Shown piece after piece: positions 20,699-57,483 of a DNA stretch of 64,000 bases. The notes below the pieces were generated by a model that was given only the letters and a program-made list of their open reading frames with translations, searched no databases and was not told the DNA's origin. Origin of the DNA: an uncultured Ilyobacter sp. (GTDB taxonomy: Bacteria; Fusobacteriota; Fusobacteriia; Fusobacteriales; Fusobacteriaceae); NCBI RefSeq assembly GCF_963668085.1, contig NZ_OY764058.1:868001-932000 (forward strand), given 5' to 3'. Numbering within the stretch: the first letter of the stretch is position 1; the number at the start of each line of letters is the position of its first letter. Made by a program: the position numbers and the translations under genes.

Positions 20699-21877
20699 TT
20701 ATTTGAACAAAGTTTCAAAAGGCATACCCTGATTATCTAAAAATTTAGGGAATTTTTTTTTGGCTGTTTTGTAGATGGAAAGATAAATCGGCGAGGTAAA
20801 TTTGTTGAATAAAATCTTATCCTGCAGTCTGTACTCCTTTTTTCTCCTGACAAGGAGTCTTATAAGAGGTAAAAAAATCTTGTTTTTTTTCTTCTTTGAA
20901 AGCTTAACTCTAAATCTATAGGCATAAGGGTAGTCGGACCTGTATTTTTTTACCATGGTTTTAAATTCTTTTATGCACTCTCTGTTCAAATCAAAATATA
21001 TAAGCTCTCTCGATTTTAATAAAAGGTAAAAAGTGTCATAATGAAAAGCATAATCATAACAGTCGATCTCATTTTCTCTAGCAATTCTATTCAACTTGTC
21101 TATTTTTTTTAGTGCTTTATATCCAATCTCAATCGAAGATTCTGGGTCCTGGCAGAAGTTTCTGTAGAAAGCGACCGTAAAATCCGTGATGGTCACGTTG
21201 TTCCAGAAGATGTGGATTACTGTAGGTACTCTTACCTTATTAAAATAAAGCTTTAACCGGGAATAATTTGGATCATATAAAAGCTCCTTTATAACTTCAT
21301 CTGATATCTTTAAAAATTCCATCATTCTGTCCCTAGAAACAGTAGGTACGAACTCTCCTACAGCCTCCTCTACGCTCTTTCCGTTTTTGAAAATTTGTAC
21401 TGTTGTATAAGTGTTTAACTCATTCCAAAAGGAGGATTCTTTTATAAATGTAAGGTTTTTAAAATTTGACCACCCTCCTGTCTGGCACCACACTGTTATC
21501 CCAACCAATGAGCTGTTCTGCTTTATTTTTTCATAGTAATCTTGGTAATCCCATCCTACAAAGGAGGGGAACTCTCCAAACCCCTCATACTCCCTACGAG
21601 TTTGAAGCTCTATTATTTTTTTCTTACCGTCGACGAAAAATTGTGAATTTAAATTTAAATATCTGAAAAAATCAGCATCTCCAAACTTCATGGAAATGAT
21701 GAAATTTTCACTGTCTATGCCCTTAAACACATCTCCATAGGTCTTCTCGTTCCACATTAGGTCCCCTACCTCATAGGCTCCAACAGTCCATGTCCTGAAA
21801 ATAAGATATTTTGATCTCTCTTCAAAAATCAAAAGAAGTTTTTTGATGAAGGAGTTTGCCTGTTTCTTTCTCTTTAA
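20699..21877 (-). pseudogene. 3' half of a split glycan-related gene (joins the fragment at 57484-58002)
   Basis: The frame is open from the transposon boundary to a stop at 20699, about 390 codons. It starts LKRKKQANSFIKKLL with no start codon at the junction. It is the C-terminal part of a gene whose 5' part lies 35.6 kb away on the same strand. Removing the insertion and one TTTAA copy restores reading through EFKSKIFLKRKKQANS without a shift, giving about 570 residues (565 if the GTG start is used). The sequence (GWDYQDYYEKIKQ, GITVWCQTGGW, RVPTVIHIFWNN) resembles the later strands of a TIM-barrel glycoside hydrolase of alpha-glucuronidase type, but I cannot name the family. An in-frame TTG near 21832 could allow expression of the fragment, probably without function. 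Confidence 0.8.
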
Positions 21878-22835
21878 GGCCTAGCGTCGATATTTATGGC
21901 TTTTTGCACAAAACACTATTCTAGCTCAATAAAAATAGGGATAGAGAAAATATCCCTACCCCTTAACCTTAATTTCTCTGAGTCCATCTTCTGTAGCTAT
22001 TTTACTCTCCTCAAATATATATTTTCCTAAAAAATTAACATGCCCTGTGCCTAGTGGACTTACTCTCTTAAATTCTTCTTCATCAAACCATTCATAGTCC
22101 TTTATAACGGAATAAATCTTCTCTAAGTACCTTGTATTCCAGATAATTAAAGAGGAAAGTAGGATATTTAAGCAACTAGCTTTTTCTAATTGCTCACCTA
22201 TTGATCTCTCATTAAGCCTTCCGTGCTTCCCAAAAAACATTAATCTTGCCACGGAGTTTATAGCTTCTCCCTTATTTAGCATCTTTTGTACCTCTTTTCT
22301 TAGGTCGTCATCTGAGAAGTACTCTAATATATACTTGGTCTTTATGATTCTTCCAATCTCCTTTAGCCCTTTGGCTACTCCATTATCCCTGTTATATGAG
22401 TTTATCTTATTTAAAATCAGTGATGCCTTTACTTTTCCACATCTGATAGATTCAATAAGCCTTAAAATCTCACTGTAGTTTTCAGTTATTATTTTTTCAT
22501 TTATCTTTTTAAACTTCTTATTACTTACTTCTGTATTCTCAAAATAATAGAGCTGTTGCTGGCTTAGGCTTTTTATTCTTGGTTTAAACTCAAATCCCAG
22601 AAGGTAAGTCAATGCAAACATCTGCTCTGTATACCCTGCCGTATCTGTGGAATGTTCATATATTTCGAGCTCTGTACCATGATAAAGTAACCCATCTAAC
22701 ACATGATTACTATCTCTTCCCTCTAGCATCTGAACATAGTATGGAGTATATTGGTCGCTAATATGACGGTATATGCTTCCACCCTTGTTTTTGTAGTGAG
22801 TATTATAGTCAGCGTAGATAGTTTTTAGGCTTATA
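21878..22835. mobile_element. Tn-A copy 1, truncated (left end and tnpA 3' part only)
   Basis: 958 bases appear identical to 53745-54702, the left end of the complete Tn-A. They begin at the terminal repeat and stop inside tnpA, where the end of Tn-B follows directly. The copy lacks tnpR and the res region, so it cannot take part in resolvase-mediated resolution. Confidence 0.92.
21956..22835 (-). pseudogene. tnpA: Tn-A transposase, C-terminal fragment
   Basis: The last 293 codons of the Tn3-family transposase, identical in protein sequence to the C-terminus of the full copy at 53823-56591. It includes the DDE-domain stretch around HVLDGLLYHGTELEIYEHSTDTAGYTEQMFAL with catalytic acidic residues. 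The reading frame continues 35 bases into the Tn-B end, giving a chance start (MVKKFGKNGARPI). Without its first 630 or so residues it cannot bind ends or transpose. Confidence 0.93.
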
Positions 22836-22868
22836 GGCCTAGCTCCGTTTTTCCCGAATTTTTTCACC
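22836..22868 (+). repeat. Tn-B left terminal inverted repeat
   Basis: 33 bases beginning GGCCTAGCTCCG and ending GAATTTTTTCACC. It differs from the right end at two positions. Confidence 0.9.
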
Positions 22869-22922
22869 AATCACATATTTAGCTCAACAAAAAAGAGATA
22901 ATCTCAAACTAAAGCTATAGAA

Positions 22923-22999
22923 TACCTTGATATTAAAGAGATAGCCCGTCAGTAAAAATTCCTTAGCGTTGTAAATCCGCATTTTCCTGACGGGACCCC
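22923..22999. repeat. Partial MITE-like sequence inside Tn-B
   Basis: About 75 bases (ACCTTGATATTAAAG ... CCTGACGGGACCCC) resemble the right end of the 326-bp element at 46135-46460 (ACCTTTGATATTAAAG ... CCTGACGGTACCCC). It is a one-ended remnant in the 139-base gap between the Tn-B end and the first cargo gene. Confidence 0.55.
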
Positions 23000-23007
23000 C
23001 TATAGTA

Positions 23008-23433
23008 TTACTTTTTATATTCTTTTAATTCACCAATACCAGAGAAATAAAACATGTCTTCAATTATATTGCGAGTCTTATCAGGGTTGTAGGCATTATA
23101 ATCAGGATTCAGAATTGCATATAAAACTCCAACTTCGATGGATCTGATAAACTTAAGATTATATATTATAGTTTCAGAATTGATACATTCAAATCTTACA
23201 AACCTATCTAAATAAGTATCGCTTAAATATGATTTTGAGTACCTAATATCACCTTCCTCGTTTATAACTTTAAAAATAGGTCCTATAAGATTATAAGTTT
23301 CTACCCTTTCTGGACTAGGGTTTCCTCTTGATTCTTTTGTTCCTCCTATCCAAGAACCTGCGATTTTCTTTTTTGCTGGTATACGTCCTATTTCAATACC
23401 TTGTTTACTAAGTTCCTCTTCTGCTTTTATCAT
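23008..23433 (-). CDS. Uncharacterised protein in Tn-B
   Basis: A 141-residue soluble protein with no recognised family. Notable stretches are IGRIPAKKKIAGSWIGGTKESRGNPSPERVE, which is basic and glycine-rich, and FVRFECINSETIIYNLKFIRSIEVGVLYAIL, which looks like beta-strands. The ribosome site AGGAGG lies before the ATG. It lies downstream of the glycan operon on the same strand, separated by 150 bases that hold only a short relic frame (ending KYGIEGLPMPWINL at about 23507). It could be a separate cargo gene or a fragment of something larger. Confidence 0.5.
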   Translation of the reverse strand: MIKAEEELSKQGIEIGRIPAKKKIAGSWIGGTKESRGNPSPERVETYNLIGPIFKVINEEGDIRYSKSYLSDTYLDRFVRFECINSETIIYNLKFIRSIEVGVLYAILNPDYNAYNPDKTRNIIEDMFYFSGIGELKEYKK

Positions 23434-23583
23434 GCTTAACCTCCTAAAAATACTTAAAAATTTAGCTCAAGTTAATAATTTATGTATTATTTTTTAAGAA
23501 TATCTTTTATAAATTAATCCATGGCATAGGTAACCCTTCTATACCATACTTTTCAACTACATCTACAGCACTCTATTTGAATT

Positions 23584-25860
23584 TCATTTAAAACTTTCGT
23601 CTTCTATCTCATGTATTTTAATTAAGGATATTAACCCTGCCAATGTAGATTCAGCACCCTGATTCGTACTTACCCCATGAGAATCCAATCCATCTCTACA
23701 CCCTCCATCTTCATAGTTATATATAGGGGTATTCAGATCATTTTCCCCAAAAAACCATGCCATGCATTTTTTAGCTTCATTTAGCCACCATTGGTCCTTT
23801 ATAGTTCTATATACATGTAAGCAAGCATTGAGTAAGCACATGGCCTCTACTGGTTGCTGACCAAAGGTAATTTTTTCTCTATCTCTAGCAAACCACCCCT
23901 CATTTCCAATTATAGAAAGATGCCCCTCTGGAGCGGTTTGAATTTCCAGTAACCATTTTAGAGACTGAATTCCTGTATTATACATATCCTTATCATCGAT
24001 AGCTTCCCCAGTTAATATTAACGCATGAGGTAAAATTCCATTAGAATACGTAATAGTTTCCTCACACCAAAGCCATTCGCTGGTAACTATGTTCTTATAT
24101 AAGCTATGAATTTTCTCAGCTAAAATTTTCTTGATCAATTTTTTTTCCAAGTCTTCTGGATTTACTTCTAGATATGCAGATAATCCCAGTACTGTAAAAG
24201 CCCAAGCTCTAGGAGAAGTGAAATCTCTCACCACAGAAAGTGCAGATATGAACAGGTCCATAGCGTTGGAACGGATAGATTTATCCACTATATTTTTAAT
24301 TGTAACTCCCAGGGCCCAAAGGGCTCTTCCGTGAGAATCTTCACTGCCTATATTTTCTTGCCACCTTCTGTCATAAGACATCAAGTTTGCAAATCTATTT
24401 GTCTTTTCATCAAAAGAATAATTTAAAAAAGCTAAATATTTCTTAATAAAAGGATATATATCCTTATCTCCTGTAAGATTGTGATACATTGATACAACGA
24501 TTAGTGCTCTGGCATTATCATCTACACAATATCCATGATTTAAATCTGGAATAGTATATTTTGCATGTTGAAGTATTCCTGTATCATCTGTCAATATTTT
24601 TAGATGAGATAAGTCTATCTCGGGTAATTTATAAGATATTCTTTTTGACCTTCTTTCATCCTCTGATTCATATTTTGGAGATATATTGATATTCTTTTTC
24701 TCTTTGCACTCCACTATGACCTTCAAATAACTCTTGGCAACCTCCGACCAAATCATAGATCTAACATAATTATAAGCCTTTCTTCTTATATTTTCACGCT
24801 TCTCTGAATCTGATAATAATATGTTTATTTCTCTAGCTAAGCTTTCTGAATCTCTAAAGGGTACTAATATCCCTCTTCCTTCTGCTAAAAGTTCTTCAGC
24901 GTGCCAAAATGGCGTAGATACAACTGCTGCCCCTGACCCAAGAGCATAGGCTAATGTTCCAGAAGTTATCTGTTCTTTATTTAAATACGGGATAGAGTAT
25001 ATAGTAGATGTTTTTATATAGCTTACAAGAGTCTCTTGGTCTACAAATTTATTATGAAAAACAACATTTTTTTCTAAGTTTAAACTTCTTATCAGTTCTT
25101 TTAATTTTTCTCTATATACATCTCCTGTTTTCTTTACAATATTAGGATGTGTTTTCCCCAAGATTAAATAAACCGCATTGGGATTTTTCTTTATAATAGC
25201 TGGCATTGCTTTGATCATAAATTCCAGACCCTTTCCAGGACTTAAAAGACCAAAGGTAAGAATAATTTCTTTTCCTTCTAAACCTATTGCATCGTTGTAT
25301 ATACCCTGATCCTCATAAGTGGTGTTTGGTATTCCGTGGGGAATAAATACCACAATTTCTTGAGGAATACCGTATACTCTAGTCAGTATGTCGAAAGCTT
25401 TTCTACTCATTACCAATAGTTTTTCAGAATATTTAGCCAAATCATTCATTACTTTTCTTTGCCCAAAACTTGGATTTTCCAATACAGTATGAAGGTTGGT
25501 TAAAATAGGCATATCTAACCTTTTCATCAGTTCTATGATGTATTCACCATCTGCACCGCCATAGATTCCATATTCATGCTGAATAACTACAGCTCTATAA
25601 TTATTCCCGTTCAGATATTGAGCTACTTTAATATATTCTTCCATGTTACCTTCTTGAATTGTTAGTTTTACTTCAGAAGGATAATTATAACCTTCTTCTT
25701 TGTCATTCATAGCTATATTTATTAATCCATTTTCCCCACGTAATTCATTGGTTATTGCCTTACTCAGATCTGTTGTAAAAGTGGCTATTCCACACTGTCT
25801 TGGGAGATAATTCCCTATAACACATATTTTTTCTTGTCCATTTATAATCTTATTTATCAT
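23584..25860 (-). CDS. GT4 glycosyltransferase fused to an alpha-helical glycosidase-like domain
   Basis: A 758-residue two-domain protein. Residues 1 to about 390 are a GT4 glycosyltransferase: GNYLPRQCGIATFTTDL, HEYGIYGGADGEY, FIPHGIPN, ILTFGLLSPGKGLEFMIKAM and the donor site near YALGSGAAVVSTPFWHAEELLAEGRGILVPF. Residues about 410-758 look like an alpha/alpha barrel of the kind found in many glycosidases and epimerases, with DDNARALIVVSMY, SHGRALWALG and a terminal SHGVSTNQGAESTLA. It is the last gene of a four-gene operon, 12 bases after a GH130 gene. It probably builds or trims a mannose- or glucose-based glycan; the activity of the second domain is not known. Confidence 0.8.
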   Translation of the reverse strand: MINKIINGQEKICVIGNYLPRQCGIATFTTDLSKAITNELRGENGLINIAMNDKEEGYNYPSEVKLTIQEGNMEEYIKVAQYLNGNNYRAVVIQHEYGIYGGADGEYIIELMKRLDMPILTNLHTVLENPSFGQRKVMNDLAKYSEKLLVMSRKAFDILTRVYGIPQEIVVFIPHGIPNTTYEDQGIYNDAIGLEGKEIILTFGLLSPGKGLEFMIKAMPAIIKKNPNAVYLILGKTHPNIVKKTGDVYREKLKELIRSLNLEKNVVFHNKFVDQETLVSYIKTSTIYSIPYLNKEQITSGTLAYALGSGAAVVSTPFWHAEELLAEGRGILVPFRDSESLAREINILLSDSEKRENIRRKAYNYVRSMIWSEVAKSYLKVIVECKEKKNINISPKYESEDERRSKRISYKLPEIDLSHLKILTDDTGILQHAKYTIPDLNHGYCVDDNARALIVVSMYHNLTGDKDIYPFIKKYLAFLNYSFDEKTNRFANLMSYDRRWQENIGSEDSHGRALWALGVTIKNIVDKSIRSNAMDLFISALSVVRDFTSPRAWAFTVLGLSAYLEVNPEDLEKKLIKKILAEKIHSLYKNIVTSEWLWCEETITYSNGILPHALILTGEAIDDKDMYNTGIQSLKWLLEIQTAPEGHLSIIGNEGWFARDREKITFGQQPVEAMCLLNACLHVYRTIKDQWWLNEAKKCMAWFFGENDLNTPIYNYEDGGCRDGLDSHGVSTNQGAESTLAGLISLIKIHEIEDESFK

Positions 25861-25872
25861 TTTTCCAACTCC

Positions 25873-27312
25873 CTAGTTTATCATGTAATCCAGTAATTCC
25901 TTTACTGAAATTAAAGCTATTCCTGAATTTGTGTCTGACATTGCATAAGGAATGATTAAATTATCTCCATGGATGATTCCTCCGCAAGAGTAAACTACAT
26001 TTGGAACATACCCATTTCTTTCGCTTTCTAACGGTTCTAAAATTGGTTTACTGGTCGCCCCTATTACTTTTCTTGGATCCTCTAGATCCAATAGGATTGC
26101 TCCTATACAATACTTTCTCATAGCCCCAACACCGTGAGTTAAAACTATCCATCCTCTATCTGTTTCTATCGGAGACCCACAGTTCCCAATCTGCATAAAT
26201 TCCCAATCATATTGCGGTTGCCTCAGTAGCTTTGAAGTATTCCAAAAATGGATGTTTTCGGAAGACATTATATATAGGTTTTCTCCATCAATTCTAGAGA
26301 TTACTGTGTATTTACCATTGATTTTTTTCGGAAAAAGAGACATACCTTTATTAGCTGCATACTCTCCGTTTAACGTTATAGCTTTATAGCTAAAGAAATC
26401 TTTAGTTTCCAATATTTGGGGAAGAATCCTAATTCCATTATAGGCCGTATACGTAGCGTAATAAACTACCTCTCCATCATCATATTTAAATCGTACAAAC
26501 CTTGCATCTTCTATTCCATTACTTTCATTTTGTGAACTAGGGAATACGATCCTTTCGGATAATTTTTGATCTATTTTAAACTGTAGCTCATAATTAGATT
26601 CTGCCAACCATAATATGGTGTCTTTTAGATCATGATTTTTTTTTTCTGGTGATATATTTAATAGATCCCGGAGCTCAGATAAACTGAATTCATCTGATAG
26701 TTGTTCTTTTAGATTTGATAAGGAACTACAGTCTTCATTCATTTCATTTAATTTACAAAAGAATATATCTTTTTTATATATAGGATTTTTCACGGCTATT
26801 GCCCTTTCTACAAAGGGACTCACCTCGTCAAATTCAAAGTTGCCTTCTTTATCTACCACTCCGCCCCTAAACTCTATAGAGGATAGGTGTCCCTCTCCTA
26901 CTGCCCTAAAACTTAATATAAATCTTATACTCCCTTCTGGAACTTGAGTTTGATCTGGATGTTTTACAATAGATGGATTAAAAAAAGCTGCTGATTGAAC
27001 TGTATACTCTTGGGAAAAATAAGCTCCCAGAAGAGCTCTTTTCACCTCACTTATCCTTTGATTCGAAGGAATATGCTCTTTTATTCTATTATAGTGCTTA
27101 TCCAGTGCATCCCAGATATTTTTATGCCTTGCTGAGAAGTTTTCTATTGTATCCTGTAAAATATTATTGGCTTCCTCATCTGATAAGTTTAAAACGCGAT
27201 TTATGATATTATCTATACGTCCTTCACCTGAAGGTATATGAGATTTTATAATTACTCTTGATGGATCTGGTCTAAATATCTTGTCTATCCTCCTTACATT
27301 TAATTTTCCCAT
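25873..27312 (-). CDS. GH130-family beta-mannoside phosphorylase-like protein (long form)
   Basis: A 479-residue protein whose C-terminal 300 residues form the five-bladed GH130 propeller. Visible blade motifs are NGIEDARFVRFKYDDGEVVYYATYTAYNG, IGNCGSPIETDRGWIVLTHGVGAMRKYCIGAILLDLEDP and NGYVPNVVYSCGGIIHGDNLIIPY. The N-terminal 110 residues are helical and extra compared with short GH130 enzymes. Family members cleave beta-mannosides with phosphate, or run in reverse to extend beta-1,2-mannan. It overlaps functionally with the shorter GH130 directly upstream (one-base gap), so the two may act on different chain lengths. Linkage cannot be read from the sequence. Confidence 0.82.
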   Translation of the reverse strand: MGKLNVRRIDKIFRPDPSRVIIKSHIPSGEGRIDNIINRVLNLSDEEANNILQDTIENFSARHKNIWDALDKHYNRIKEHIPSNQRISEVKRALLGAYFSQEYTVQSAAFFNPSIVKHPDQTQVPEGSIRFILSFRAVGEGHLSSIEFRGGVVDKEGNFEFDEVSPFVERAIAVKNPIYKKDIFFCKLNEMNEDCSSLSNLKEQLSDEFSLSELRDLLNISPEKKNHDLKDTILWLAESNYELQFKIDQKLSERIVFPSSQNESNGIEDARFVRFKYDDGEVVYYATYTAYNGIRILPQILETKDFFSYKAITLNGEYAANKGMSLFPKKINGKYTVISRIDGENLYIMSSENIHFWNTSKLLRQPQYDWEFMQIGNCGSPIETDRGWIVLTHGVGAMRKYCIGAILLDLEDPRKVIGATSKPILEPLESERNGYVPNVVYSCGGIIHGDNLIIPYAMSDTNSGIALISVKELLDYMIN

Positions 27313-27313
27313 T

Positions 27314-28246
27314 TTAATCCCTCTCCTTTAAACACATATCTATTAACTTATTTATATTGGCTTCTCCTACACACATGACACTATCGGCACCGCCCCAATA
27401 AATCTTCAGAGTCCCATCCCCTTCGTCCACTGCTCCACAGGTAAAGACTACGTTGGGCACATAGCCTGTTACTTCCCAGGGATCTTCTGGCTCCAAGATC
27501 CACTCATCTGAAACTCCCAATACAATAGATGGATCCTCCAAATCATGAAGTGCTACCCCAAGTCTGTAAACAGATCCTGACATGGTTTTAAATACACCAT
27601 GATATATATTTAGCCATCCTTTTTCAGTCTTTATAGGAGTAGCTCCAGGTCCTATCTTCATCTCATCCCAGCGGTATTTATGGGGCTGCATTATTAATCT
27701 AGATCTTCCCCAATGTACCAAATCCGGTGAATAAGATATCCAGATAGACCATTTAGATATCTCTGAATGAGGTCTATCCAACCTCACATACTGTCCGTCT
27801 ATCTTTTGGGGAAAAATAACTACATTTCTTAGATCCGCCTGGGTAATAAGAGCGACTCTTTCTATCTCTGTGAAATCACGAGTTTTTGCAAGGGCTATTC
27901 TGACTCCATATTTAGAATAGCAGCTATAAGTTAAAAGGTGTTCACCGTCGATTTCACTAATCCGGAGATCTTCTACACCGTATTCCTCATACTGAGAAAA
28001 TATTGATTCCTTTTGCTTACATGGTGTTAAAAAAGGTTTCGATTCCACTTTAAAATCATAACCATCATCACTTTTAGCCATTCCTATAATAGATCTTCCA
28101 TTTAGAAGGTGGGAACGAAATAGCATAATATATTTATTTTTATATTTGACAATCCCTGCATTATGAACTGTAGCTACAGGATATGGCACGTCATCTTTAG
28201 TCAATATAGGATTTTTTTTATATCTTACCACCACTTCTCTCTTCAC
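27314..28246 (-). CDS. GH130-family beta-mannoside phosphorylase (short form)
   Basis: A 310-residue GH130 protein of normal family length. Hallmarks are GVEDLRISEIDGEHLLTYSCYS, FPQKIDGQYVRLDRPHSE, SIWISYSPDLVHWG, KIGPGATPIKTEKGWLNIYHGV and GYVPNVVFTCGAV. The catalytic Asp is probably in GVEDLRI. These enzymes phosphorolyse beta-1,2- or beta-1,4-mannosides to mannose-1-phosphate. The start is GTG with GAGGAGG upstream, overlapping the stop of the preceding glycosyltransferase by 3-4 bases, so translation is coupled. The neighbouring GT4 genes suggest a glycan made and turned over by one operon. Confidence 0.87.
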   Translation of the reverse strand: MKREVVVRYKKNPILTKDDVPYPVATVHNAGIVKYKNKYIMLFRSHLLNGRSIIGMAKSDDGYDFKVESKPFLTPCKQKESIFSQYEEYGVEDLRISEIDGEHLLTYSCYSKYGVRIALAKTRDFTEIERVALITQADLRNVVIFPQKIDGQYVRLDRPHSEISKWSIWISYSPDLVHWGRSRLIMQPHKYRWDEMKIGPGATPIKTEKGWLNIYHGVFKTMSGSVYRLGVALHDLEDPSIVLGVSDEWILEPEDPWEVTGYVPNVVFTCGAVDEGDGTLKIYWGGADSVMCVGEANINKLIDMCLKERD

Positions 28247-49292: not shown

Positions 49293-49312
49293 GATCTAAA
49301 GGAGGATTTTTA

Positions 49313-49633
49313 ATGAAAAAGTTTTTAAAAAGTAATTTACATTACCTAGTTATAGCTGGGATGTTTACTTTAGTTCAGGAGGTTGGTATGGCGTCGTCTT
49401 CAGACATGCCCTTTGTCGGACCTCTTGAAGAGATTATGTTGGCAATCACAGGTCCGGTTGCTAAATATTTAGCGATTATCTGTGTTGCAGGATGTGGTCT
49501 AGCTATGTCCTTTGGGGAAATGGGAGGAGCTATGAAAAGACTTGTTAATATTGTCTTTGGTATTTCAATAGTTTTTGCTGCAGTTAGCTGGGTTCCAACC
49601 TTCTTCAGTTTTTCAGGTGGAGTTAATTTCTAA
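49313..49633 (+). CDS. virB2: VirB2/TrbC-type conjugative pilin
   Basis: A 106-residue pilin. It has a long signal peptide (MKKFLKSNLHYLVIAGMFTLVQEVGMA) and two hydrophobic helices (ITGPVAKYLAIICVAGCGLAM and LVNIVFGISIVFAAVSWVP) separated by a short FGEMGGAMKR loop, as in TrbC/VirB2. AAAGGAGG lies before the ATG. It forms the extracellular pilus of the type IV secretion system. It is directly followed by VirB8/9/10 homologues, so the genes that usually lie between (VirB3, B4, B5, B6) are absent or encoded elsewhere. Confidence 0.88.
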   Translation: MKKFLKSNLHYLVIAGMFTLVQEVGMASSSDMPFVGPLEEIMLAITGPVAKYLAIICVAGCGLAMSFGEMGGAMKRLVNIVFGISIVFAAVSWVPTFFSFSGGVNF

Positions 49634-49644
49634 GGAGGGGAGCT

Positions 49645-50328
49645 ATGAACTATAAACCGGATACCTCCCCTTTGGTTACTAATTCTCAAAAGATAAACCC
49701 CATGGATTCATGGCATGACAGATACTTAAATCTGTCTAAGGGAATTAGAAACTGGCAGTTAGCTTTTTTTCTTATCTTTATTCTTTTTACCGGTTCTCTT
49801 ATAGCCACATATTTCATAAGTATCAAAGCAACCTTTGTTCCATACATAATTGAAGTTGAGAAAAATGGAAAAGTTAACTCTATAGGCAAACCACTAGAGC
49901 AAAATTATAAAGTAACTGAGGGACAGATCAAATATTTTTTACGTCAATTTATTCTAAACACCAGAACAATATCTTTAGATCCAGTTCTTTATGGAAAAAA
50001 ATATAAGGAAGCCTTCTATTTTGTGAGCAAACAGTCAAAGCAAAAGCTTGGATTATTGTATGAAGAAGATAAAGTTCTTGAAAAATTAACGGCTAAAGAA
50101 ACGGTTTCACCAGAGATTATTTCTATTAATAAAATTGCCGGTACTCCAAACTCTTACCAAATAAGATGGTCTGAAACATATTTTGGAAAAGATGGAGGAA
50201 TAAAGGGGAAGAAACAGTATTCTGGAATTTACACGCTCTCTTCAAATCCTCCTCAAACTGAGGAAGCATTATACAGGAATCCACTTGGAATCATTATCGA
50301 GGATTTTTCACAGTCTATTGAGATATAG
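49645..50328 (+). CDS. trbF: VirB8/TrbF-type inner-membrane conjugation protein
   Basis: A 227-residue protein with a short cytoplasmic N-terminus, one membrane helix (LAFFLIFILFTGSLIATYF, about residues 34-52) and a periplasmic VirB8/NTF2-like domain. The domain contains YFLRQFILNTRTISLDPVLYGKKYKEAF and IRWSETYFGKDGG. It is a scaffold of the inner-membrane part of the type IV channel. The ribosome site AAGGAGGGG precedes it, and the gap to virB2 is 11 bases. The following gene begins 13 bases after its stop. Confidence 0.9.
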   Translation: MNYKPDTSPLVTNSQKINPMDSWHDRYLNLSKGIRNWQLAFFLIFILFTGSLIATYFISIKATFVPYIIEVEKNGKVNSIGKPLEQNYKVTEGQIKYFLRQFILNTRTISLDPVLYGKKYKEAFYFVSKQSKQKLGLLYEEDKVLEKLTAKETVSPEIISINKIAGTPNSYQIRWSETYFGKDGGIKGKKQYSGIYTLSSNPPQTEEALYRNPLGIIIEDFSQSIEI

Positions 50329-50341
50329 AAGGAGAATGAAA

Positions 50342-51178
50342 ATGAAAAAATTAATATTAGGAACTTTTATCTTTGTTAGCTGCCTTTCATTCTCAGAAGA
50401 ATCAACTTATCGAGATTTTTCCATGAAAGAACCAGTTATAAGATCTGGATTAAAAGAAGCTAAAGAAAACATTGCGAGAAGTTTTGTTTTTAATCAGGGA
50501 GATATGTATAGAGTCTATGCTAGAGAGGGATTTCTAACAACAATATTACTTCAGCCAGGAGAGGAAGTGACATTCTTAGGTGGTGGAGATACCTCTAGAT
50601 GGGCTATTGAACAAGCATTAACAGGATCTAACGAAGGGGAAAGAATTGCAATCTATATCAAGCCATTTCAACAAGAAATAAAAACAAATTTGATTATTAA
50701 TACAAACAAAAGGCAGTACCATTTTTTTCTTCAAAGTGCAAAAAATTATTATAACCCTTTAGTTAGTTTTATATATCCTAGAGAAGCTCAATTGAAATAC
50801 AAAATTGAAAAACTTAAGGATGAACAACAATTGACTCCAGTAAATACCGAGAACCTTTTCTTTGGATATAAGATAAATCACTCAAGGTATAAAATAGCTC
50901 CCTCACAGGTATTTGATGACGGGAATAAAACATTTCTGATAATGAAAAATGAAGTAAAAAGCTCTGAAGCTCCTGTAATCTATTTAGAAGACCCTCTTAC
51001 GGGAGATACGGCGTTAGTGAACTACAGAATCAAAGGGAATTATTATATAGTTGATCGTATTTTTGATAAAGCAATTATAAAACTTGGTAAAAAAGAAGTA
51101 AAAATTAAGAGAACTATTAATTCTAATAGAAAAAGGAAGGATAATATTAAGCTATCTGGTCGTAGAGGTGAGCTTTGA
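50342..51178 (+). CDS. trbG: VirB9/TrbG-type outer-channel protein
   Basis: A 278-residue exported protein with the signal peptide MKKLILGTFIFVSCLSFSEE. A VirB9 N-terminal domain (DMYRVYAREGFLTTILLQPGEEVTFLGGGDTSRW, then GERIAIYIKP) and a C-terminal beta domain (FGYKINHSRYKIAPSQVFDDGNKTFLIM) follow. It forms the outer-membrane core ring with the VirB10 homologue. The start is the ATG 7 bases after AAGGAG; a longer upstream frame overlaps trbF and is rejected. The stop lies one base before the trbI start, so translation is coupled. Confidence 0.9.
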   Translation: MKKLILGTFIFVSCLSFSEESTYRDFSMKEPVIRSGLKEAKENIARSFVFNQGDMYRVYAREGFLTTILLQPGEEVTFLGGGDTSRWAIEQALTGSNEGERIAIYIKPFQQEIKTNLIINTNKRQYHFFLQSAKNYYNPLVSFIYPREAQLKYKIEKLKDEQQLTPVNTENLFFGYKINHSRYKIAPSQVFDDGNKTFLIMKNEVKSSEAPVIYLEDPLTGDTALVNYRIKGNYYIVDRIFDKAIIKLGKKEVKIKRTINSNRKRKDNIKLSGRRGEL

Positions 51179-51179
51179 T

Positions 51180-52274
51180 ATGTCAGAAAGTTCTAATGAA
51201 AAACAAGTGAAAAAAGATGTGATTCCAGGAAAACATATAAACAAAAGGTCTTTAATAATAGCGTTTGTTTTAATCCTTGGAATCATAATTTTAACTTCAT
51301 CTTTTAAAAATAAAGGGAGTTCTGAGGAGAAGAAAAGTATTAATTTAGAGGAAAAAATGACGGTTAATAATGTTTCAGATCTTCCAAATAGCTATCAAGA
51401 GATGAGAATAAAAGAAGAGATAGAAACACCTTTTGATAATAGCAATTACACAGAAAATGTAATTTATCAAAATCAAATGTTAGATGAAGAAAAGCATAAA
51501 AAATTGGATAAACTTTATCAAGAAGCGGAACTAGCTAAAAGAAGTGGAATAGGATTTGGTGTCAATAAGAGAAATAATGAAAACACCTCAATTGACCAAA
51601 CTACCTATATTTCAAGAGAACAGAATTTAAATGACCAAGGAAGCAAGGATTCTTTCTTAAAAAATAAAGAATCTAGCCCTACCTACCTTAAAAATTATAT
51701 AGAGGATCCAATATCACCATATGAAATAAAAGCAGGAACAGTAATACCTGGTATTATGATTACCGGAATTAATTCTGATCTACCGGGAAATATAGTTGGT
51801 CAAGTTAGAGAGTCAGTATTTGATAAAGTTTCTGGTAACTATCTTTTAATTCCTCAAGGCACTAAAATTTTTGGAACTTATGACTCCAATGTAAGTTGGG
51901 GACAGAATCGAGTACTAATTGTCTGGCAAAGGCTTATTTTTCCTAATGGAAAATCAATTAATCTCTCTAATATGCCAGGAGTTGATCTTACAGGCCAGGC
52001 AGGTTTCAGCGATAAAGTAAATAATCACTTTGGAACACTTTTAAAAGGAGTAGTGCTTACATCAATTACAGGTGCCGGCTCAGCAATAGTAACAAATGAT
52101 GAAAATAATGATTATGAGTCTGAAGCTGCTAAGGCTGCAGGAATAGCAATTATTAATATTGGGAATAATTTTGCAGAAAAGGCCTTAGATGTACAGCCCA
52201 CCATTGAAATAAGAGCAGGATATAGATTTAACATCATGGTAAATAGCGATATGATTTTAACACCTTATGAATAA
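51180..52274 (+). CDS. trbI: VirB10/TrbI-type core channel protein
   Basis: A 364-residue protein with a cytoplasmic tail, one membrane helix (SLIIAFVLILGIIILTSS, about residues 26-43), an extended periplasmic linker and the C-terminal TrbI barrel. The barrel shows PYEIKAGTVIPGIMITGINSDLPG, NYLLIPQGTKIFGTYD, WQRLIFPNGKSINL and a final AGYRFNIMVNSDMIL. It spans both membranes and opens the outer gate on energy input. The start follows GAGGTGAG at good spacing. Confidence 0.92.
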   Translation: MSESSNEKQVKKDVIPGKHINKRSLIIAFVLILGIIILTSSFKNKGSSEEKKSINLEEKMTVNNVSDLPNSYQEMRIKEEIETPFDNSNYTENVIYQNQMLDEEKHKKLDKLYQEAELAKRSGIGFGVNKRNNENTSIDQTTYISREQNLNDQGSKDSFLKNKESSPTYLKNYIEDPISPYEIKAGTVIPGIMITGINSDLPGNIVGQVRESVFDKVSGNYLLIPQGTKIFGTYDSNVSWGQNRVLIVWQRLIFPNGKSINLSNMPGVDLTGQAGFSDKVNNHFGTLLKGVVLTSITGAGSAIVTNDENNDYESEAAKAAGIAIINIGNNFAEKALDVQPTIEIRAGYRFNIMVNSDMILTPYE

Positions 52275-52306
52275 AGAACAAAAATATTCAAAAAGGAAAA
52301 CCTGAT

Positions 52307-53744
52307 ATGAAACTTAATTTTAATTTTTATAAGAAAAATATAATCGGCTATATATTCATTTTGTTTCTTCTTTCTGGAATATGGATGGCCACACAAACTT
52401 TTGCTAAATATACAGGATATCACCCTGGATTAGGTGATCCACTGGTTAAATTTAAAGGAATTAAAATATACAAACCTTTTTTGATTTTAATCTGGCTAAA
52501 TAAATATTCCCACTTTGCTCCTATTGCTGCTCAAAAGTCAACACAAACATTATTTGGATTTATATTTACAGGATTTTTCATTATGGCTATTTTCAAAAGG
52601 CAGAATTCCTCTCTAGACACCCACGGTACTGCCAGATGGGCAAATATCTGTGATATCAGAGAATCTGGACTTTATTTAAAAAATAAAGAAGTTGAAAAAG
52701 CTTTAAAATCCTCTGGAATGTGGAATCTATATACCAAAAGACTACCTAAAGAAGAGCATCATAGGGATGGAGTTGTTTTAGGAAAAGACCGTAAAGGAAG
52801 AGAGATAATACATAATGGAGTTGAACACATTATGCTTATGGCCCCTACCAGGTCAGGTAAGGGGGTAGGTGTTATTATACCCACTCTTCTTACTTGGAAA
52901 CACTCTACAATTGTTAATGATATCAAAGGTGAGAACTATCAACTCACAAAAAAATTCAGAGAAGCATTGGGGCACAAATGTCTGAAATTTGATCCAACAA
53001 ATCCCGTCGAATCATGTAAGTATAATCCCCTTCTTGGCATTAATAAGGGGAAGGACTGTGAATATCAAGACGCCAGAATTATCGCAGAAATAATATGTGC
53101 TTCAGATAAGCCAGATCACTGGTCTCAAAGTGCAACTTCTTTTTTAACAGGAATAATCCTTCATGTTATCTATTCAGAATCTAACCCTACTCTAGGAGGA
53201 ATAGTTCGTTTTTTAACGTCAACAGAAACAAATTTCGAAGATAAAATGGAACAAATAATGTCCTATCCTCATACGAACGATCACTCTACTTTTGAAAATA
53301 TCTATCATGATGTTGTAAAGCTAAACGTTGAAGATGAAGAAACACAAGAGTTAACAGTAACAGAGTTTCCAAATACACATCCTGTTGCAGCAAGAGTTGC
53401 AGGAGACATGCTAGGAAAGGCAGATAAGGAAAGAGCAAGTATAGTTTCAACAGCTCTTACTAAACTGGGGATATATCAAGATCCCATTATAGACAAAAAT
53501 ACATCTGGCAGTGATTTTAATATAAATGATCTCATGAATGCCGATGTTCCTTTAGATCTTTTTCTTGTAACACCGCCCAAGGCATTAGATGTCACAGCTC
53601 CTCTTTTTAGGTTGATCATAACTCAGATTATATATGGACTTACTGAGGAAATGGTATTTATGAATGGAATGAAAAATAAGGGATATAAGCATAGACTTTT
53701 ACTTTTATTAGACGAATTTTCTGCACTTGGAAAAATTCCATTAA
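52307..53744 (+). pseudogene. traG: VirD4/TraG coupling protein, truncated by Tn-A
   Basis: The first 479 codons of a type IV coupling protein. It has two N-terminal membrane segments (FILFLLSGIWMATQTFA and TLFGFIFTGFFIMAIF), Walker A MAPTRSGKGVGVI (near residue 179) and Walker B LLLLLDEFSALGKIP (near 464). The frame is cut at 53744 by the Tn-A left end and reads 15 codons into it. Family proteins run 550-700 residues, so the C-terminal all-alpha and motor parts are lost. The missing 3' half is not next to the other Tn-A copy, because that copy is itself truncated. Transfer from this locus should be blocked. Confidence 0.92.
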
Positions 53745-53776
53745 GGCCTAGCGTCGATATTTATGGCTTTTTGCAC
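53745..53776 (+). repeat. Tn-A left terminal inverted repeat (copy 2)
   Basis: It starts GGCCTAGCGTCGATATTTAT. The first 26 bases equal the right end, then TT replaces CG and GCAC follows. The same sequence begins copy 1 at 21878. Confidence 0.93.
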
Positions 53777-53822
53777 AAAACACTATTCTAGCTCAATAAA
53801 AATAGGGATAGAGAAAATATCC

Positions 53823-56591
53823 CTACCCCTTAACCTTAATTTCTCTGAGTCCATCTTCTGTAGCTATTTTACTCTCCTCAAATATATATTTTCCTAAAAA
53901 ATTAACATGCCCTGTGCCTAGTGGACTTACTCTCTTAAATTCTTCTTCATCAAACCATTCATAGTCCTTTATAACGGAATAAATCTTCTCTAAGTACCTT
54001 GTATTCCAGATAATTAAAGAGGAAAGTAGGATATTTAAGCAACTAGCTTTTTCTAATTGCTCACCTATTGATCTCTCATTAAGCCTTCCGTGCTTCCCAA
54101 AAAACATTAATCTTGCCACGGAGTTTATAGCTTCTCCCTTATTTAGCATCTTTTGTACCTCTTTTCTTAGGTCGTCATCTGAGAAGTACTCTAATATATA
54201 CTTGGTCTTTATGATTCTTCCAATCTCCTTTAGCCCTTTGGCTACTCCATTATCCCTGTTATATGAGTTTATCTTATTTAAAATCAGTGATGCCTTTACT
54301 TTTCCACATCTGATAGATTCAATAAGCCTTAAAATCTCACTGTAGTTTTCAGTTATTATTTTTTCATTTATCTTTTTAAACTTCTTATTACTTACTTCTG
54401 TATTCTCAAAATAATAGAGCTGTTGCTGGCTTAGGCTTTTTATTCTTGGTTTAAACTCAAATCCCAGAAGGTAAGTCAATGCAAACATCTGCTCTGTATA
54501 CCCTGCCGTATCTGTGGAATGTTCATATATTTCGAGCTCTGTACCATGATAAAGTAACCCATCTAACACATGATTACTATCTCTTCCCTCTAGCATCTGA
54601 ACATAGTATGGAGTATATTGGTCGCTAATATGACGGTATATGCTTCCACCCTTGTTTTTGTAGTGAGTATTATAGTCAGCGTAGATAGTTTTTAGGCTTA
54701 TAGGTACTCTCATTCCATCAGAAGAAGATTTATGACCTTCTCCCCAGTTCTTAACGATATCCAAAGAGTGGTGGTAATTTACCAGTATCTTTTGAGCTTT
54801 GGATAACGCTTCACTACTAAAATAGAACTCATCTATTCTACGAAGAAGAGTTTCATTTATAGAGCTAGAGATAGCCATCTTAGAGAAACCTATATTGTGG
54901 CCATTAGACATCAAAGCAGCTATTAAGTGTTTCTGCTTCTCGTAGATATCGTCACTGTCCCTTATATAATCCAATACACCTGTCCATGTGTTTACTTCAT
55001 AAAGAATTTCAGGCATAGAGATTTTAGGAAAATAATTATAGACTCTGTCACTAAAAATACTTTTATCATCGGCTTGGATATCGGTATTGAATTCTATTTG
55101 TCTAGGTATAACCAGCAAATTCTTTAGAGTCTCCAGAAAGATTCTCACTTCTTTAGCATCAGATACCTTCTTATCTTCCACCAAATAATGATCGAAGCTA
55201 TTGTATTTTTTACTTTCCTTTACAAAGATATCTCCAGACCTTATATAGTCTCTAATGGAGTACAGAAGAGCTAATTCAATAGACTTCTTGCTAGACCCCA
55301 TTTTCTTTATATTTTTCTGCCATTGATTGTTAAATATGGAAATATCCATATCAATTTTCTTTTTATGTTTTAAGGCTGGAAACTCTTTAAGATTCCTTAT
55401 AAACTCGGGCTTAGTATTGCTTTCAAACTCTATAATTTCAATAAGTTCATTGGTATAATTGAAGCTGGATTGGGACTTTAACAGGAAATCAATCTCCTCC
55501 AGTTCATCTCTCTGAGACTCCAGTTCTTCATTGAGAGGTAATAAAGACTCCTGTAATTCCCTTAACTCCTGTACACCATTTAGTTCAAGAACCTCCTTTA
55601 CAACCTCTTTTAACTTTAAGGTATTCATTTTTAATTGCTCTTGATTCTTTAGGTTATATATCTTGGACTTTTTCCTACTCCTCTTAAGAACAGTCTGAGT
55701 ATATGCAGAAGTTACCTCTATAACCATATCTACAAACTCTTTCCTTCTAAAGTGTATAAACATAGCAAGATAAGCTAATTTCTTATTCTCGTCAGAAAAC
55801 TGATCTATTCTATGTTTATCAGATTTTTGAACCTCTAGATTAAAGTACCTTACCTTGGCTTCACTTAAGAAACTTAGATCCAAGGGACTTCTATAGGTAT
55901 CAAGTTCCTTTATCATCTTTAGCAGTGCTTTAGCTCCACCTGAATTGGCATTAACACTTATATTCTTTATCCTGGAGTAGGTTGATGTCCCTGATGCTTC
56001 TATATCCAGTAAAGAATACAGCCTAAAAGGATCTTCTACATTACTTCGGATTTCTTGAAAAATTTTGTCATCTGACTCCTTTATTTCCAACCACAATAAG
56101 TGTTCCATTATCTGTAGTGAAGGAGGTACAATTTTCTTATCTTTCAATACTTTAAAAGCTTCCTTAACTATAGCTACGTTATCACCATAAGAAAAAGCTA
56201 TCTTATAAAACTCTTCCCTTATATTATCTGTGTATTTGAACTCAGAGTAACTGTACTCTTCTATAATTTGATAAAAATATCTGGACTTTGTATTCTTTAT
56301 CCTCCAATGCTCACCTAGATTTTTAGCAGTACATCCTAACTGATCTTCTATAAAATTAACTACAACACCTGGTATTTTTTCAGGAAGATGCCTTATGTCC
56401 AGTCCTTTAACCCTTAAATATAAAAGCTGAAGAGCATAGCCAATCCTATGATATGGTTTAGGCAATTCTTGAATTTCCTTTATTTCTTCAGGGGTTAAGG
56501 TGAAGTTTGTTGACAGTTCCTTCTCGTTACATATTGACAATAAGATCTCTTCCCTTTCCCTTCTTAAAAGGATCTTGTTTCTATATCTCAT
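53823..56591 (-). CDS. tnpA: Tn-A Tn3-family transposase
   Basis: A 922-residue intact Tn3 transposase. It has an N-terminal DUF4158-type domain (MRYRNKILLRREREEILL...), helical central parts and a C-terminal DDE nuclease (SSDGMRVPISLKTIYADYNTHY; HGTELEIYEHSTDTAGYTEQMFAL). It carries out replicative transposition, joining donor and target into a cointegrate with two element copies. It overlaps tnpR by 11 bases. The Tn-B enzyme is similar throughout and most alike in the DDE half. Confidence 0.96.
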   Translation of the reverse strand: MRYRNKILLRREREEILLSICNEKELSTNFTLTPEEIKEIQELPKPYHRIGYALQLLYLRVKGLDIRHLPEKIPGVVVNFIEDQLGCTAKNLGEHWRIKNTKSRYFYQIIEEYSYSEFKYTDNIREEFYKIAFSYGDNVAIVKEAFKVLKDKKIVPPSLQIMEHLLWLEIKESDDKIFQEIRSNVEDPFRLYSLLDIEASGTSTYSRIKNISVNANSGGAKALLKMIKELDTYRSPLDLSFLSEAKVRYFNLEVQKSDKHRIDQFSDENKKLAYLAMFIHFRRKEFVDMVIEVTSAYTQTVLKRSRKKSKIYNLKNQEQLKMNTLKLKEVVKEVLELNGVQELRELQESLLPLNEELESQRDELEEIDFLLKSQSSFNYTNELIEIIEFESNTKPEFIRNLKEFPALKHKKKIDMDISIFNNQWQKNIKKMGSSKKSIELALLYSIRDYIRSGDIFVKESKKYNSFDHYLVEDKKVSDAKEVRIFLETLKNLLVIPRQIEFNTDIQADDKSIFSDRVYNYFPKISMPEILYEVNTWTGVLDYIRDSDDIYEKQKHLIAALMSNGHNIGFSKMAISSSINETLLRRIDEFYFSSEALSKAQKILVNYHHSLDIVKNWGEGHKSSSDGMRVPISLKTIYADYNTHYKNKGGSIYRHISDQYTPYYVQMLEGRDSNHVLDGLLYHGTELEIYEHSTDTAGYTEQMFALTYLLGFEFKPRIKSLSQQQLYYFENTEVSNKKFKKINEKIITENYSEILRLIESIRCGKVKASLILNKINSYNRDNGVAKGLKEIGRIIKTKYILEYFSDDDLRKEVQKMLNKGEAINSVARLMFFGKHGRLNERSIGEQLEKASCLNILLSSLIIWNTRYLEKIYSVIKDYEWFDEEEFKRVSPLGTGHVNFLGKYIFEESKIATEDGLREIKVKG

Positions 56592-57228
56592 GGCTGCCCT
56601 CTTTCTTCATCTTATAAAACATTGCCTTTGAACACCCTATCGCTTCAAGGGCTTCTTTCACTGAGATATAATCAGGGTTATTTTTGTTTCTTGTAAGTGG
56701 ATAAATTACTTTGAACCTTTCTCTAAGCTCTGTATCTTTGCTTCTGCCGAATTTAACCCCTTTAGATAAAGCCCTTTTAACACCTTCTCTCTGCCTCTTT
56801 CTCAACTCTTTCCTTTCCCACTCTGCTCTAAGGAGATCTACTTCAAGCATTGTATCTAGCATGACATTCAGCATAGCTTCAGCCAGAGAATTAGCTTTCT
56901 TAGAATTCAGATTTTCCTTTAAAAACTCATTTAAGTATCCCTGATCTATAGATTCTACTATGATACCTTTATTTGTAAGGTCTATAAGGCGTCTTCTTAC
57001 CTCTTTAGCATCTCTTCCTATTCGATCTAAGTTTTTAACAACAATAGTATCGTTTTCTTTAACCCATTCATTTACAAGCTCATTCCAGGCTTGTCTATTC
57101 TCAAAACTCTTTCCAGATTTCTTCTCTTTGAATATAGTCCTTTCTGTAGCTCCAATTTCTTTAAAGGCTTGGATTTGCCTATCTAGATTTTGTGTATCAG
57201 ATGAAACTCTAGCATAAAAATATTTCAT
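56581..57228 (-). CDS. tnpR: Tn-A serine resolvase
   Basis: A 215-residue serine recombinase starting MKYFYARVSSDTQNLDRQIQAF (catalytic Ser in RVSS), with KNLDRIGRDAKEV and a C-terminal helix-turn-helix (SVKEALEAIGCSKAMFYKM). GGAGG lies 6 bases before the ATG. It normally resolves cointegrates by recombining two res sites. Only one res region remains in this insertion, so the enzyme has no partner site to act on here. Confidence 0.94.
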   Translation of the reverse strand: MKYFYARVSSDTQNLDRQIQAFKEIGATERTIFKEKKSGKSFENRQAWNELVNEWVKENDTIVVKNLDRIGRDAKEVRRRLIDLTNKGIIVESIDQGYLNEFLKENLNSKKANSLAEAMLNVMLDTMLEVDLLRAEWERKELRKRQREGVKRALSKGVKFGRSKDTELRERFKVIYPLTRNKNNPDYISVKEALEAIGCSKAMFYKMKKEGSHEI

Positions 57229-57345
57229 TCACTACCTCCGATGCTTTTATTATCTCTACACTTTTCAGGTGGAAAAAGTCAATGAAATATATAGTATTTT
57301 ATGAACTAAAGTTTATAAATAAGGAATAGAATGTTTATAGACTAA

Positions 57346-57416
57346 AAAAACAGAGATTTAAAACAGGTCTATAATAGTATACTATCGTAGACTCCTACTA
57401 AAGAATCTCTGTTTTT
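57346..57416. promoter_or_regulatory. Candidate res subsite I of Tn-A
   Basis: A near-perfect palindrome GTCTATAATAGTATACTATC...TAGAC (57367-57392) is nested inside a larger inverted repeat (AAAACAGAGATT / AATCTCTGTTTT, about 57346-57416). Its place between tnpR and the right end, 138 bases from the tnpR start, suits a resolvase crossover site. Confidence 0.55.
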
Positions 57417-57446
57417 ATTGATTTTATTGGGATAGATTTACATTTG

Positions 57447-57478
57447 GTGCCGAAAGCCATAAATATCGACGCTAGGCC
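57447..57478 (-). repeat. Tn-A right terminal inverted repeat (copy 2)
   Basis: On the minus strand it begins GGCCTAGCGTCGATATTTAT and continues GGCTTTCGGCAC. It is followed by the duplicated target TTTAA at 57479-57483. Confidence 0.93.
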
Positions 57479-57483
57479 TTTAA

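Follow-up and report, generated by a model that had tools for sequence, protein, structure and literature searches.

A 35.6-kb block that splits a putative GH67-like gene in an uncultured Ilyobacter is bordered by two direct copies of the same Tn3-family transposon (Tn-A), and a second Tn3-family transposon (Tn-B) starts exactly where the left copy is cut. Our preferred reading, in which we place about even confidence, is that a plasmid resembling pILYOP02 was fused to the host replicon as a replicative cointegrate and that a Tn-B deletion subsequently removed the resolution half of the left copy. Tn3 cointegrates are usually short-lived intermediates. Here, the cause of persistence appears to be legible in the DNA, because the half that is missing at the Tn-B border is the resolution half.

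The stretch that we analysed (the window) comprises 64,000 nucleotides of a close relative of Ilyobacter polytropus. The genome assembly consists of three contigs with a completeness estimate of 100%, and the window sits on contig C2 (965,686 bp), which is collinear with the 961,624-bp plasmid pILYOP01 (NC_014633.1). This plasmid is near C2 in size and matches it on both sides of the insert (81-95% identity in the collinear pieces), but the insert is entirely missing from it, as are the split gene and the neighbours of this gene from position 16699 on. At 966 kb, the host replicon is thus megaplasmid-like. A sequence-only reading of the window had placed the insertion in a chromosomal gene, a description that is not supported and that we rejected in view of the size of C2 and its collinearity with pILYOP01.

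The C-terminal part of the split gene (20699..21877, minus strand) runs up to a TTTAA motif and the N-terminal part (57484..58017, minus strand) comprises 178 codons. When the outer flanks were joined with a single TTTAA, we obtained an open frame of 570 codons with its ATG at 58017, and the join lies after codon 178. Among the best 120 of 1133 homologues found, none (0/120) showed an alignment gap at a distance of up to 6 residues from the join, and the best one was uninterrupted and 98% identical over its full length. In their source records, 21 of these 120 proteins are named 'glycosyl hydrolase family 67', and these names suggest that the gene encodes a GH67-like hydrolase. An uninterrupted relative lacking the gene entirely had been put forward as an argument against a fusion. 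I. polytropus indeed lacks it, but an intact counterpart with 98% identity exists elsewhere.

The complete Tn-A copy (3,734 bp, 53745..57478, minus strand) has inverted repeats that are identical at 33/38 positions, including all of the first 20. It carries tnpA (922 aa, 53823..56591, minus strand) and tnpR, which encodes an apparently intact serine resolvase (215 aa, 56581..57228, minus strand; PF00239). TnpA matched PF01526 (2e-112) and NF033527 (524.9 bits, cut-off 500) and was aligned with the Tn4430 transposase in the PDB (3e-127) over the SSDGMR, TDTAGYT and NKGEAIN blocks, which we take to hold the catalytic residues. A large DDE transposase of the Tn3 type, inverted repeats of some 38 bp at the ends and a 5-bp target duplication place Tn-A in the Tn3 family. 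The left copy (21878..22835, minus strand) consists of the outer inverted repeat and the 3' end of tnpA only, and its ORF (21956-22870) matches positions 112-389 of the DDE_Tnp_Tn3 profile. Alignment of 21878-22835 with 53745-54702 gave 958/958 identical bases in the same orientation. In BLAST the identity stretch extended over 21874-22837, and the bases beyond the 958 are the flanking TTAA and a GG common to the Tn-A interior and the Tn-B end. The 12-bp end GGCCTAGCGTCG is found at 21878 (plus strand), 53745 (plus strand) and 57467-57478 (minus strand).

The left and right copies of the target duplication TTTAA are located at 21873..21877 and 57479..57483. For one given pair of 5-mers, a chance match has a probability of 0.0017 at the window composition. 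The TTTAA pair coincides with exact transposon ends and with the open joined reading frame. On the inner side, the complete copy is flanked by ATTAA (53740..53744), the donor flank inside a cut traG gene. Taken alone, this copy therefore has unlike flanks (ATTAA/TTTAA), as expected of a cointegrate. Thus, the architecture described in the sequence-only reading stands: about 100% identity of the two stretches, TTTAA repeats around 35.6 kb, the same Tn3-type end facing outward at both borders, a truncated 958-base left copy and a complete right copy in the same orientation, and ATTAA in traG.

An exact repeat of 958 bp makes both possible joins equal for an assembler that uses short reads only, so that a circle of 31,867 bp might have been misjoined over it to a replicon that in reality carries just a simple Tn-A insertion. 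We regard such an artefact as very improbable. Three contigs, the completeness of 100% and the size of C2 near that of pILYOP01 suggest a finished genome, and we found no replication gene for the hypothetical circle. Contig C1 is similar in size (31,714 bp), but it is different DNA that is unlike the insert and carries a Rep3 gene. C1 has hsdR/hsdM and a resolvase in common with pILYOP02, and none of the pILYOP02 transfer genes tested was found on it.

Tn-B (10,238 bp, 22836..33073, plus strand) is bounded by inverted repeats at 22836-22870 (plus strand) and 33039-33073 (minus strand), which are identical at 35/38 positions. The repeat pattern, which was derived from those two ends, was absent from all of 100 shuffles. 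The cargo (23584..29409, minus strand) comprises a glycosyltransferase, two GH130 proteins and another glycosyltransferase according to Pfam. It is followed by tnpR (serine resolvase, 202 aa, 29626..30234, plus strand; PF00239) and tnpA (924 aa, 30224..32998, plus strand; PF01526; NF033527 565.2 bits, cut-off 500). Transposase, resolvase and inverted repeats place Tn-B in the Tn3 family, and no res-like palindrome was recognised in it. The left Tn-A copy stops at 22835/22836, the latter being the exact first base of the Tn-B inverted repeat. Tn-B is joined there to TTATA of Tn-A (22831..22835); the target motif of Tn1 has been given as TTWTA (PMC8116780). On its right side, Tn-B is flanked by TTAAA in an open 42-codon remnant (33074..33202, plus strand) that precedes jetC. 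The remnant can be called jetB by position only and had no PADLOC match. Behind it follow jetC and jetD (33195..38464, plus strand; PADLOC JetC2 1.3e-223, JetD2 5e-69) of a type II Wadjet operon. This jetABCD system is incomplete: only jetC and jetD gave matches, and the gene ahead of them is broken off by the end of Tn-B. The unlike flanks, TTATA in Tn-A and TTAAA in the shortened Wadjet operon, are likely the signature of a Tn-B-mediated deletion. We also considered a simple insertion of Tn-B into the left Tn-A, which was rejected because Tn-A does not continue past Tn-B and the two flanks are unlike. The coincidence of the truncation point 22835/22836 with the start of an inverted repeat had been missed in the sequence-only reading, as had a reason for the 'frozen' state of the fusion, which the Tn-B deletion may offer.

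What the left copy has lost can be read from the right one. The complete Tn-A carries tnpR and, between tnpR and the transposon end, a 26-bp near-palindrome (57367..57392, 11/13 pairs) that is putatively the res site. The left copy has neither. The near-palindrome is all that was recognised of a res site, which would comprise three subsites. Its GTCTA-TAGAC pattern occurs twice in the window versus 0.81 expected, and 13 of 100 shuffles reached two, so that by itself it does not exceed what chance would give there. The lack of tnpR and of the res-like site in the left copy is the likely reason for the persistence of the fusion. A point against our preferred reading is that tnpR of Tn-A looks intact, so that a cointegrate with two res sites should be resolved rapidly unless Tn-B struck first. 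For Tn1 without tnpR, transformants consistent with unresolved cointegrates have been described (PMC8116780).

The remaining interior points to a plasmid donor. A block at 48275..53744 (plus strand) comprises a LexA-like repressor (minus strand), virB2, virB8, virB9, virB10 and the cut traG, as identified by Pfam and tblastn. This T4SS block shares 91% DNA identity with positions 74497-80001 of pILYOP02 from I. polytropus DSM 2926 (NC_014634.1), a plasmid typed as conjugative (MOBQ/MPF_T), and the Tn-B cargo is 97.6% identical to DNA of the same plasmid. Both are plasmid-borne in I. polytropus and not native chromosome; native chromosomal copies of the interior genes in close relatives had been named as a finding that would speak against the fusion. 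The retained pieces fall in the pILYOP02 arc at about 55.2-80.0 kb with order and orientation conserved. The other arc carries the rest of traG, trbB, virB3, virB4, virB6 and parA; the pILYOP02 gene names were verified by Pfam. In contrast to the insert, pILYOP02 is a free plasmid with a relaxase, an intact traG and further T4SS genes, and its own Tn-B has no match to tnpA or to the right end of the Tn-B described here. In the stretch from Tn-B to the T4SS block, the relaxase is missing from the window and its place is taken by Wadjet and other genes, and this difference suggests that the donor was related to pILYOP02 but not identical with it.

The insert had been called a conjugative replicon, and this label is not upheld. 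Its traG is cut at codon 387 of 528 (pILYOP02 protein numbering), and no genes for a relaxase, trbB, virB3 or virB4 were found in it. Replication families were absent from all 30 insert ORFs of at least 90 aa (30/30) and from the one of eight smaller uncovered ORFs that was scanned. A self-transmissible plasmid requires a replication gene, a relaxase, VirB4 and an uncut coupling protein, and the insert does not qualify as one. The pILYOP02 proteins MobA, TrbB, VirB3, VirB4 and VirB6 gave no tblastn match in the window or in C1, and MobA had none in the genome as a whole in a search run without a positive control. Survival of the lost plasmid half elsewhere in the genome is not supported. The lost trbB-virB3-virB4 stretch had no match there at the DNA level (best 40 of 239 candidates), and the only coupling-protein gene matched in the genome was the cut traG.

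These losses bear on a different origin, in which the 35.6-kb unit with both outer Tn-A ends left a plasmid that already had two Tn-A copies and jumped en bloc, like a composite transposon. The missing plasmid genes would then be explained without any deletion after arrival, the ends of the unit are properly inverted relative to each other, and transposase, resolvase and one res-like site lie within it. A composite reading has also been raised for TnPa38 (PMC12466754). We nevertheless consider this origin improbable, because the donor plasmid must have held two Tn-A copies in direct orientation, which the resolvase would part, and no such plasmid was found in our searches. Target immunity of Tn3 elements would also discourage two Tn-A copies on one plasmid.

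According to our preferred reading, a pILYOP02-like plasmid with Tn-A in traG would have undergone replicative transposition into the GH67-like gene of the 966-kb replicon, and the fusion would be the transposition intermediate itself. Tn-B would then have deleted, probably by intramolecular transposition (the 'cis' pathway drawn in PMC5142620), a large part of the plasmid DNA along with the left Tn-A half that would hold tnpR and the res-like site. With no second res left, the resolvase would be unable to undo the fusion, and loss of the other pILYOP02 arc would also take away a competing replication system. We infer this order of events, fusion first and Tn-B deletion second. A cointegrate leaves a copy of the element, in direct orientation, at each border between donor and target as well as a target duplication at the outer ends, and both are seen here. 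The donor flank ATTAA is visible at the right inner side alone, because the left inner end, and with it the other inner flank, has been lost.

The same outer and inner flanks would result from homologous recombination, and by them a true cointegrate is indistinguishable from a later recombination of two Tn-A copies. Here, a resolved Tn-A insertion in the GH67-like gene (TTTAA) would have been followed by a single crossover in Tn-A with the plasmid, the traG copy of which had perhaps been cut by Tn-B beforehand. With the truncation first, no unresolved stage with two res sites is required. Plasmid fusion between Tn3 copies is on record (PMC10714771), and single-crossover fusion via shared elements is drawn in PMC5142620. 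On the other hand, recombination needs one extra step, and a plasmid without the arc from 80 through 124 to 55 kb and without any replication gene found would have to be caught in passing. Moreover, there was no other full Tn-A in the genome among the best 40 of 83 candidates, the other matches being Tn-B at 70% and a 122-bp end at 88%. We consider this course a serious contender, but less probable than replicative fusion. Of the earlier proposal of an unresolved plasmid integration via Tn-A, the fusion is well supported by the pILYOP02 T4SS match and the intact homologue, but the flanks fit the replicative route and recombination alike.

Matches to Tn-A at E<=1e-20 were obtained in 9/98 Fusobacteriota genomes, the source genome included (best 3 candidates per genome), and among the matches listed none outside this genome exceeded 74% identity. 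At E<=0.001, any match was seen in 17/61 genomes, again including the source (best <=4 candidates per genome), and with the same number of candidates the genome taken as I. polytropus DSM 2926 gave no match. A pattern scan of genome contigs for the Tn-A TnpA yielded 213 pattern matches, none of which was confirmed as a relative. A near full-length relative (71%) in genome G018, the single one whose flanks were read, has ends without a target duplication. Neither the plasmid with traG::Tn-A that the sequence-only reading had suggested looking for nor a clone with a simple Tn-A insertion was found in our searches.

The locus suggests a likely and simple way in which a plasmid is locked for good, though disabled, into a larger replicon, and the same route could build a composite transposon. 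Somewhat doubtfully, it may be a snapshot of a Tn3 cointegrate turning into a large transposon, with one res deleted by a second Tn3 element and thus out of reach of the resolvase, the plasmid stripped of its genes for replication and transfer, and the 35.6-kb unit movable as a whole. If so, the outer Tn-A ends and one intact tnpA-tnpR-res set would mobilise 35.6 kb including the cargo transposon Tn-B.

Among the titles and abstract openings of the papers listed, we recognised none on a Tn3 cointegrate locked by the deletion of a second transposon, and no paper on Ilyobacter together with Tn3 was found among those covered. Natural cointegrates with an intact target duplication had been called seldom documented, which may be fair, but a Tn3-family cointegrate of chromosome and plasmid with target duplication is already published (PMC12466754). 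In that case, TnPa38 of Pseudomonas aeruginosa, two direct Tn3-family copies with a single 5-bp duplication enclose plasmid DNA within a larger replicon, an arrangement that was interpreted as a cointegrate in that paper. However, the two TnPa38 copies abut the plasmid, whereas at our locus a second Tn3 transposon truncates one of the two copies. The duplication is found at the inner ends for TnPa38 and at the outer ends here. Movement from chromosome to plasmid was inferred for TnPa38. In our insert, most of the plasmid genes are gone. The deletion step resembles Tn1331-delta::IS26 of Klebsiella plasmids (PMC5142620), in which a deletion in cis from an exact Tn3-family end removed the original duplication. 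There, 171 and 1,259 bp of plasmid were deleted, whereas the loss described here would amount to tens of kilobases, including the resolution half of Tn-A, if the donor resembled pILYOP02.

The two copies of the Tn3-family transposon Tn-A were aligned and found identical over 958 bases (21878-22835 and 53745-54702, zero differences), which confirms the coordinates of the sequence-only reading. The complete copy (53745-57478; 3,734 bp) encodes a TnpA of 922 aa and a TnpR of 215 aa, and its inverted repeats share 33 of 38 positions. As had been claimed from the sequence, TTTAA lies immediately outside both outer ends, and ATTAA, which is the cut site in traG, borders the complete copy on its inner side.

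When we joined the outer flanks via one TTTAA, a single open frame of 570 codons was obtained (ATG at 58017). For homologue searches 560 aa of the joined protein were used, starting at a later Met, and 1133 proteins were retrieved at E<=0.001. The best 120 of these 1133 were aligned: no gap lies within six residues of the join in any of them (0/120), and the closest is 98% identical, full length and uninterrupted. The source name of 21 of these best 120 was glycosyl hydrolase family 67. An NCBIfam search with the joined protein and a Pfam search with its 98% homologue gave no match, and therefore the name GH67-like is taken from homologues. An intact homologue (61%) is present in one of 60 relatives searched (genome G011); none was found in the other two genomes belonging to the genus.

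The genome comprises three contigs (3,102,539 bp), of which C2, where the window occupies 868001-932000, measures 965,686 bp and C1 31,714 bp. The window is collinear with pILYOP01 of I. polytropus DSM 2926 over 3-16648 and over 58166-63980, the collinear pieces being 81-95% identical; in pILYOP01 the two matching flanks lie only 64 bases apart. Since pILYOP01 is a plasmid record (961,624 bp), the earlier designation of the target as chromosomal is not supported. A 143-bp direct repeat, 99% identical, was seen at 6170-6312 and 15452-15594 in stretches of the host locus lacking ORFs of at least 90 aa.

The integrated DNA is what remains of a conjugative plasmid. It matches the I. polytropus plasmid pILYOP02 at 48235-53739 (91.3%) and 46479-47254 (98.2%). 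This 124,226-bp plasmid is typed conjugative, MOBQ and MPF_T; its traG is intact, with trbB, virB3 and other transfer genes after it, and Pfam supports VirB3, VirB4 (PF03135), VirB6 (PF04610), MobA and a topoisomerase. In tblastn, traG of the window proved to be cut at codon 387 of the 528 in the pILYOP02 protein. Of 15 pILYOP02 proteins tested, six match the window (partial TraG, VirB10, VirB9, VirB8, VirB2, LexA), ParA and the protein at 19-1692 match only C1, weakly, and seven match neither (MobA, TraD, TrbB, VirB3, VirB4, VirB6, topoisomerase). The stretch between the second Tn3-family transposon, Tn-B, and the T4SS block is unlike pILYOP02, which counts against the cointegrate reading. 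A Pfam scan of all 30 insert ORFs of at least 90 aa found no replication and no relaxase family. Thus, of the proposed conjugative replicon, the conjugative-plasmid origin is upheld by the pILYOP02 match, but replicon status is not.

Several other features were observed in the insert. At the Tn-B junction (33074-38464), all that is left of a type II Wadjet operon is jetC, jetD and the end of the gene before jetC. Wadjet acts against plasmids, and here it is carried on DNA of plasmid origin which has come to lie within a larger replicon. Pieces of an IS256/Mutator-type element (38604-39094 and 43768-44993; direct orientation, order swapped) enclose two genes, one CheB-CheR-PAS and one GGDEF-HD, and may mark a signalling cassette captured between IS sequences. 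Two HepT/nucleotidyltransferase pairs (45153-45843, 47530-48160) cluster with a nucleotidyltransferase fused to a substrate-binding domain (46498-47253), and additional genes of these kinds are annotated on pILYOP02. A repeat of about 80 bp (22925-23003) recurs at 46384-46460 and twice more on pILYOP02.

The left Tn-A copy ends with base 22835. Directly after it, at 22836, a different inverted repeat begins (GGCCTAGCTCCG...), the partner of which ends at 33073 (35/38 identical); a pattern drawn from these ends matched twice in the window and never in shuffled sequence. These repeats bound Tn-B (22836-33073; 10,238 bp), which carries glycosyltransferase and GH130 genes, a resolvase and a 924-aa Tn3 transposase. 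Its first 172 bases are 92% identical to pILYOP02, the start of tnpR 98-99% and the cargo (23584-29409; GT4, GH130, GH130, GT4) 97.6%; compared with 91% for the T4SS block, the cargo value suggests that Tn-B was exchanged more recently than the backbone. The pILYOP02 relative of Tn-B (L019, 5155-15000) has kept the left end (flank TTTAA) and the cargo; its resolvase gene is interrupted by an IS256-family transposase gene, and neither tnpA nor the right end gave a match there. The Tn-B flanks differ in origin, TTATA belonging to Tn-A and TTAAA opening the remnant of the gene upstream of jetC, and therefore a simple insertion is ruled out. A Tn3-family element with flanks from two once-distant sequences is the expected product of intramolecular replicative deletion, the pathway called cis in PMC5142620, and TTATA conforms to the Tn1 target motif TTWTA (PMC8116780). 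The same arrangement would follow from recombination or resolution involving two Tn-B copies.

Missing from the left Tn-A copy is the stretch in which the complete copy carries tnpR and a near-palindrome of 26 bp (57367-57392), the latter likely the core of res. Its pattern is statistically insecure (two occurrences in the window, 0.81 expected, two reached in 13 of 100 shuffles), and it is favoured because it adjoins tnpR. With a single res-like site remaining, TnpR would have no partner to recombine with, and release would be left to general recombination across the 958 bp, giving a 31,867-bp circle. On C1 (L061, 10856-11760), a resolvase gene precedes a Tn-A-like end of roughly 122 bp (88% identity), beside which a motif resembles the Tn-A palindrome by eye; it was not ranked by the palindrome scan. 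C1 also has a Rep3 gene, and it shares hsdR/hsdM with pILYOP02.

That the fusion formed directly as a replicative Tn-A cointegrate appears to us an even call. This route takes fewer events and no second resident Tn-A copy; against it count the apparently intact Tn-A tnpR, which favours fast resolution, and a Tn-A relative in genome G018 without target duplication at its ends. An identical sequence would result if two Tn-A insertions, the first flanked by TTTAA and the second by ATTAA, had recombined through a single crossover. That route would skip the unresolved stage if the plasmid copy had been truncated first, but it requires more events and a second resident copy, and we consider it possible, if somewhat less probable. 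Further results count against the reading, as does the statistical insecurity of the res motif: neither a plasmid with traG::Tn-A nor a simple Tn-A insertion was found in the searches made, and in 97 other Fusobacteriota genomes (three candidates scored per genome) nothing exceeded 74% identity to Tn-A among the matches listed. Movement of the whole 35.6-kb unit en bloc is improbable, and an assembly error very improbable.

In the titles and abstract openings searched, a natural fusion with its resolution half replaced by a second Tn3 element was not met. Cointegrates, plasmid fusions via Tn3 copies and Tn3-made deletions are already published separately: a TnPa38 chromosome-plasmid cointegrate (PMC12466754), a Tn3-mediated plasmid fusion and its resolution (PMC10714771), transformants consistent with cointegrates that remain unresolved when tnpR is missing (PMC8116780), Tn3-made deletions (PMC5142620) and the general scheme of cointegrate and res (PMC7157771).
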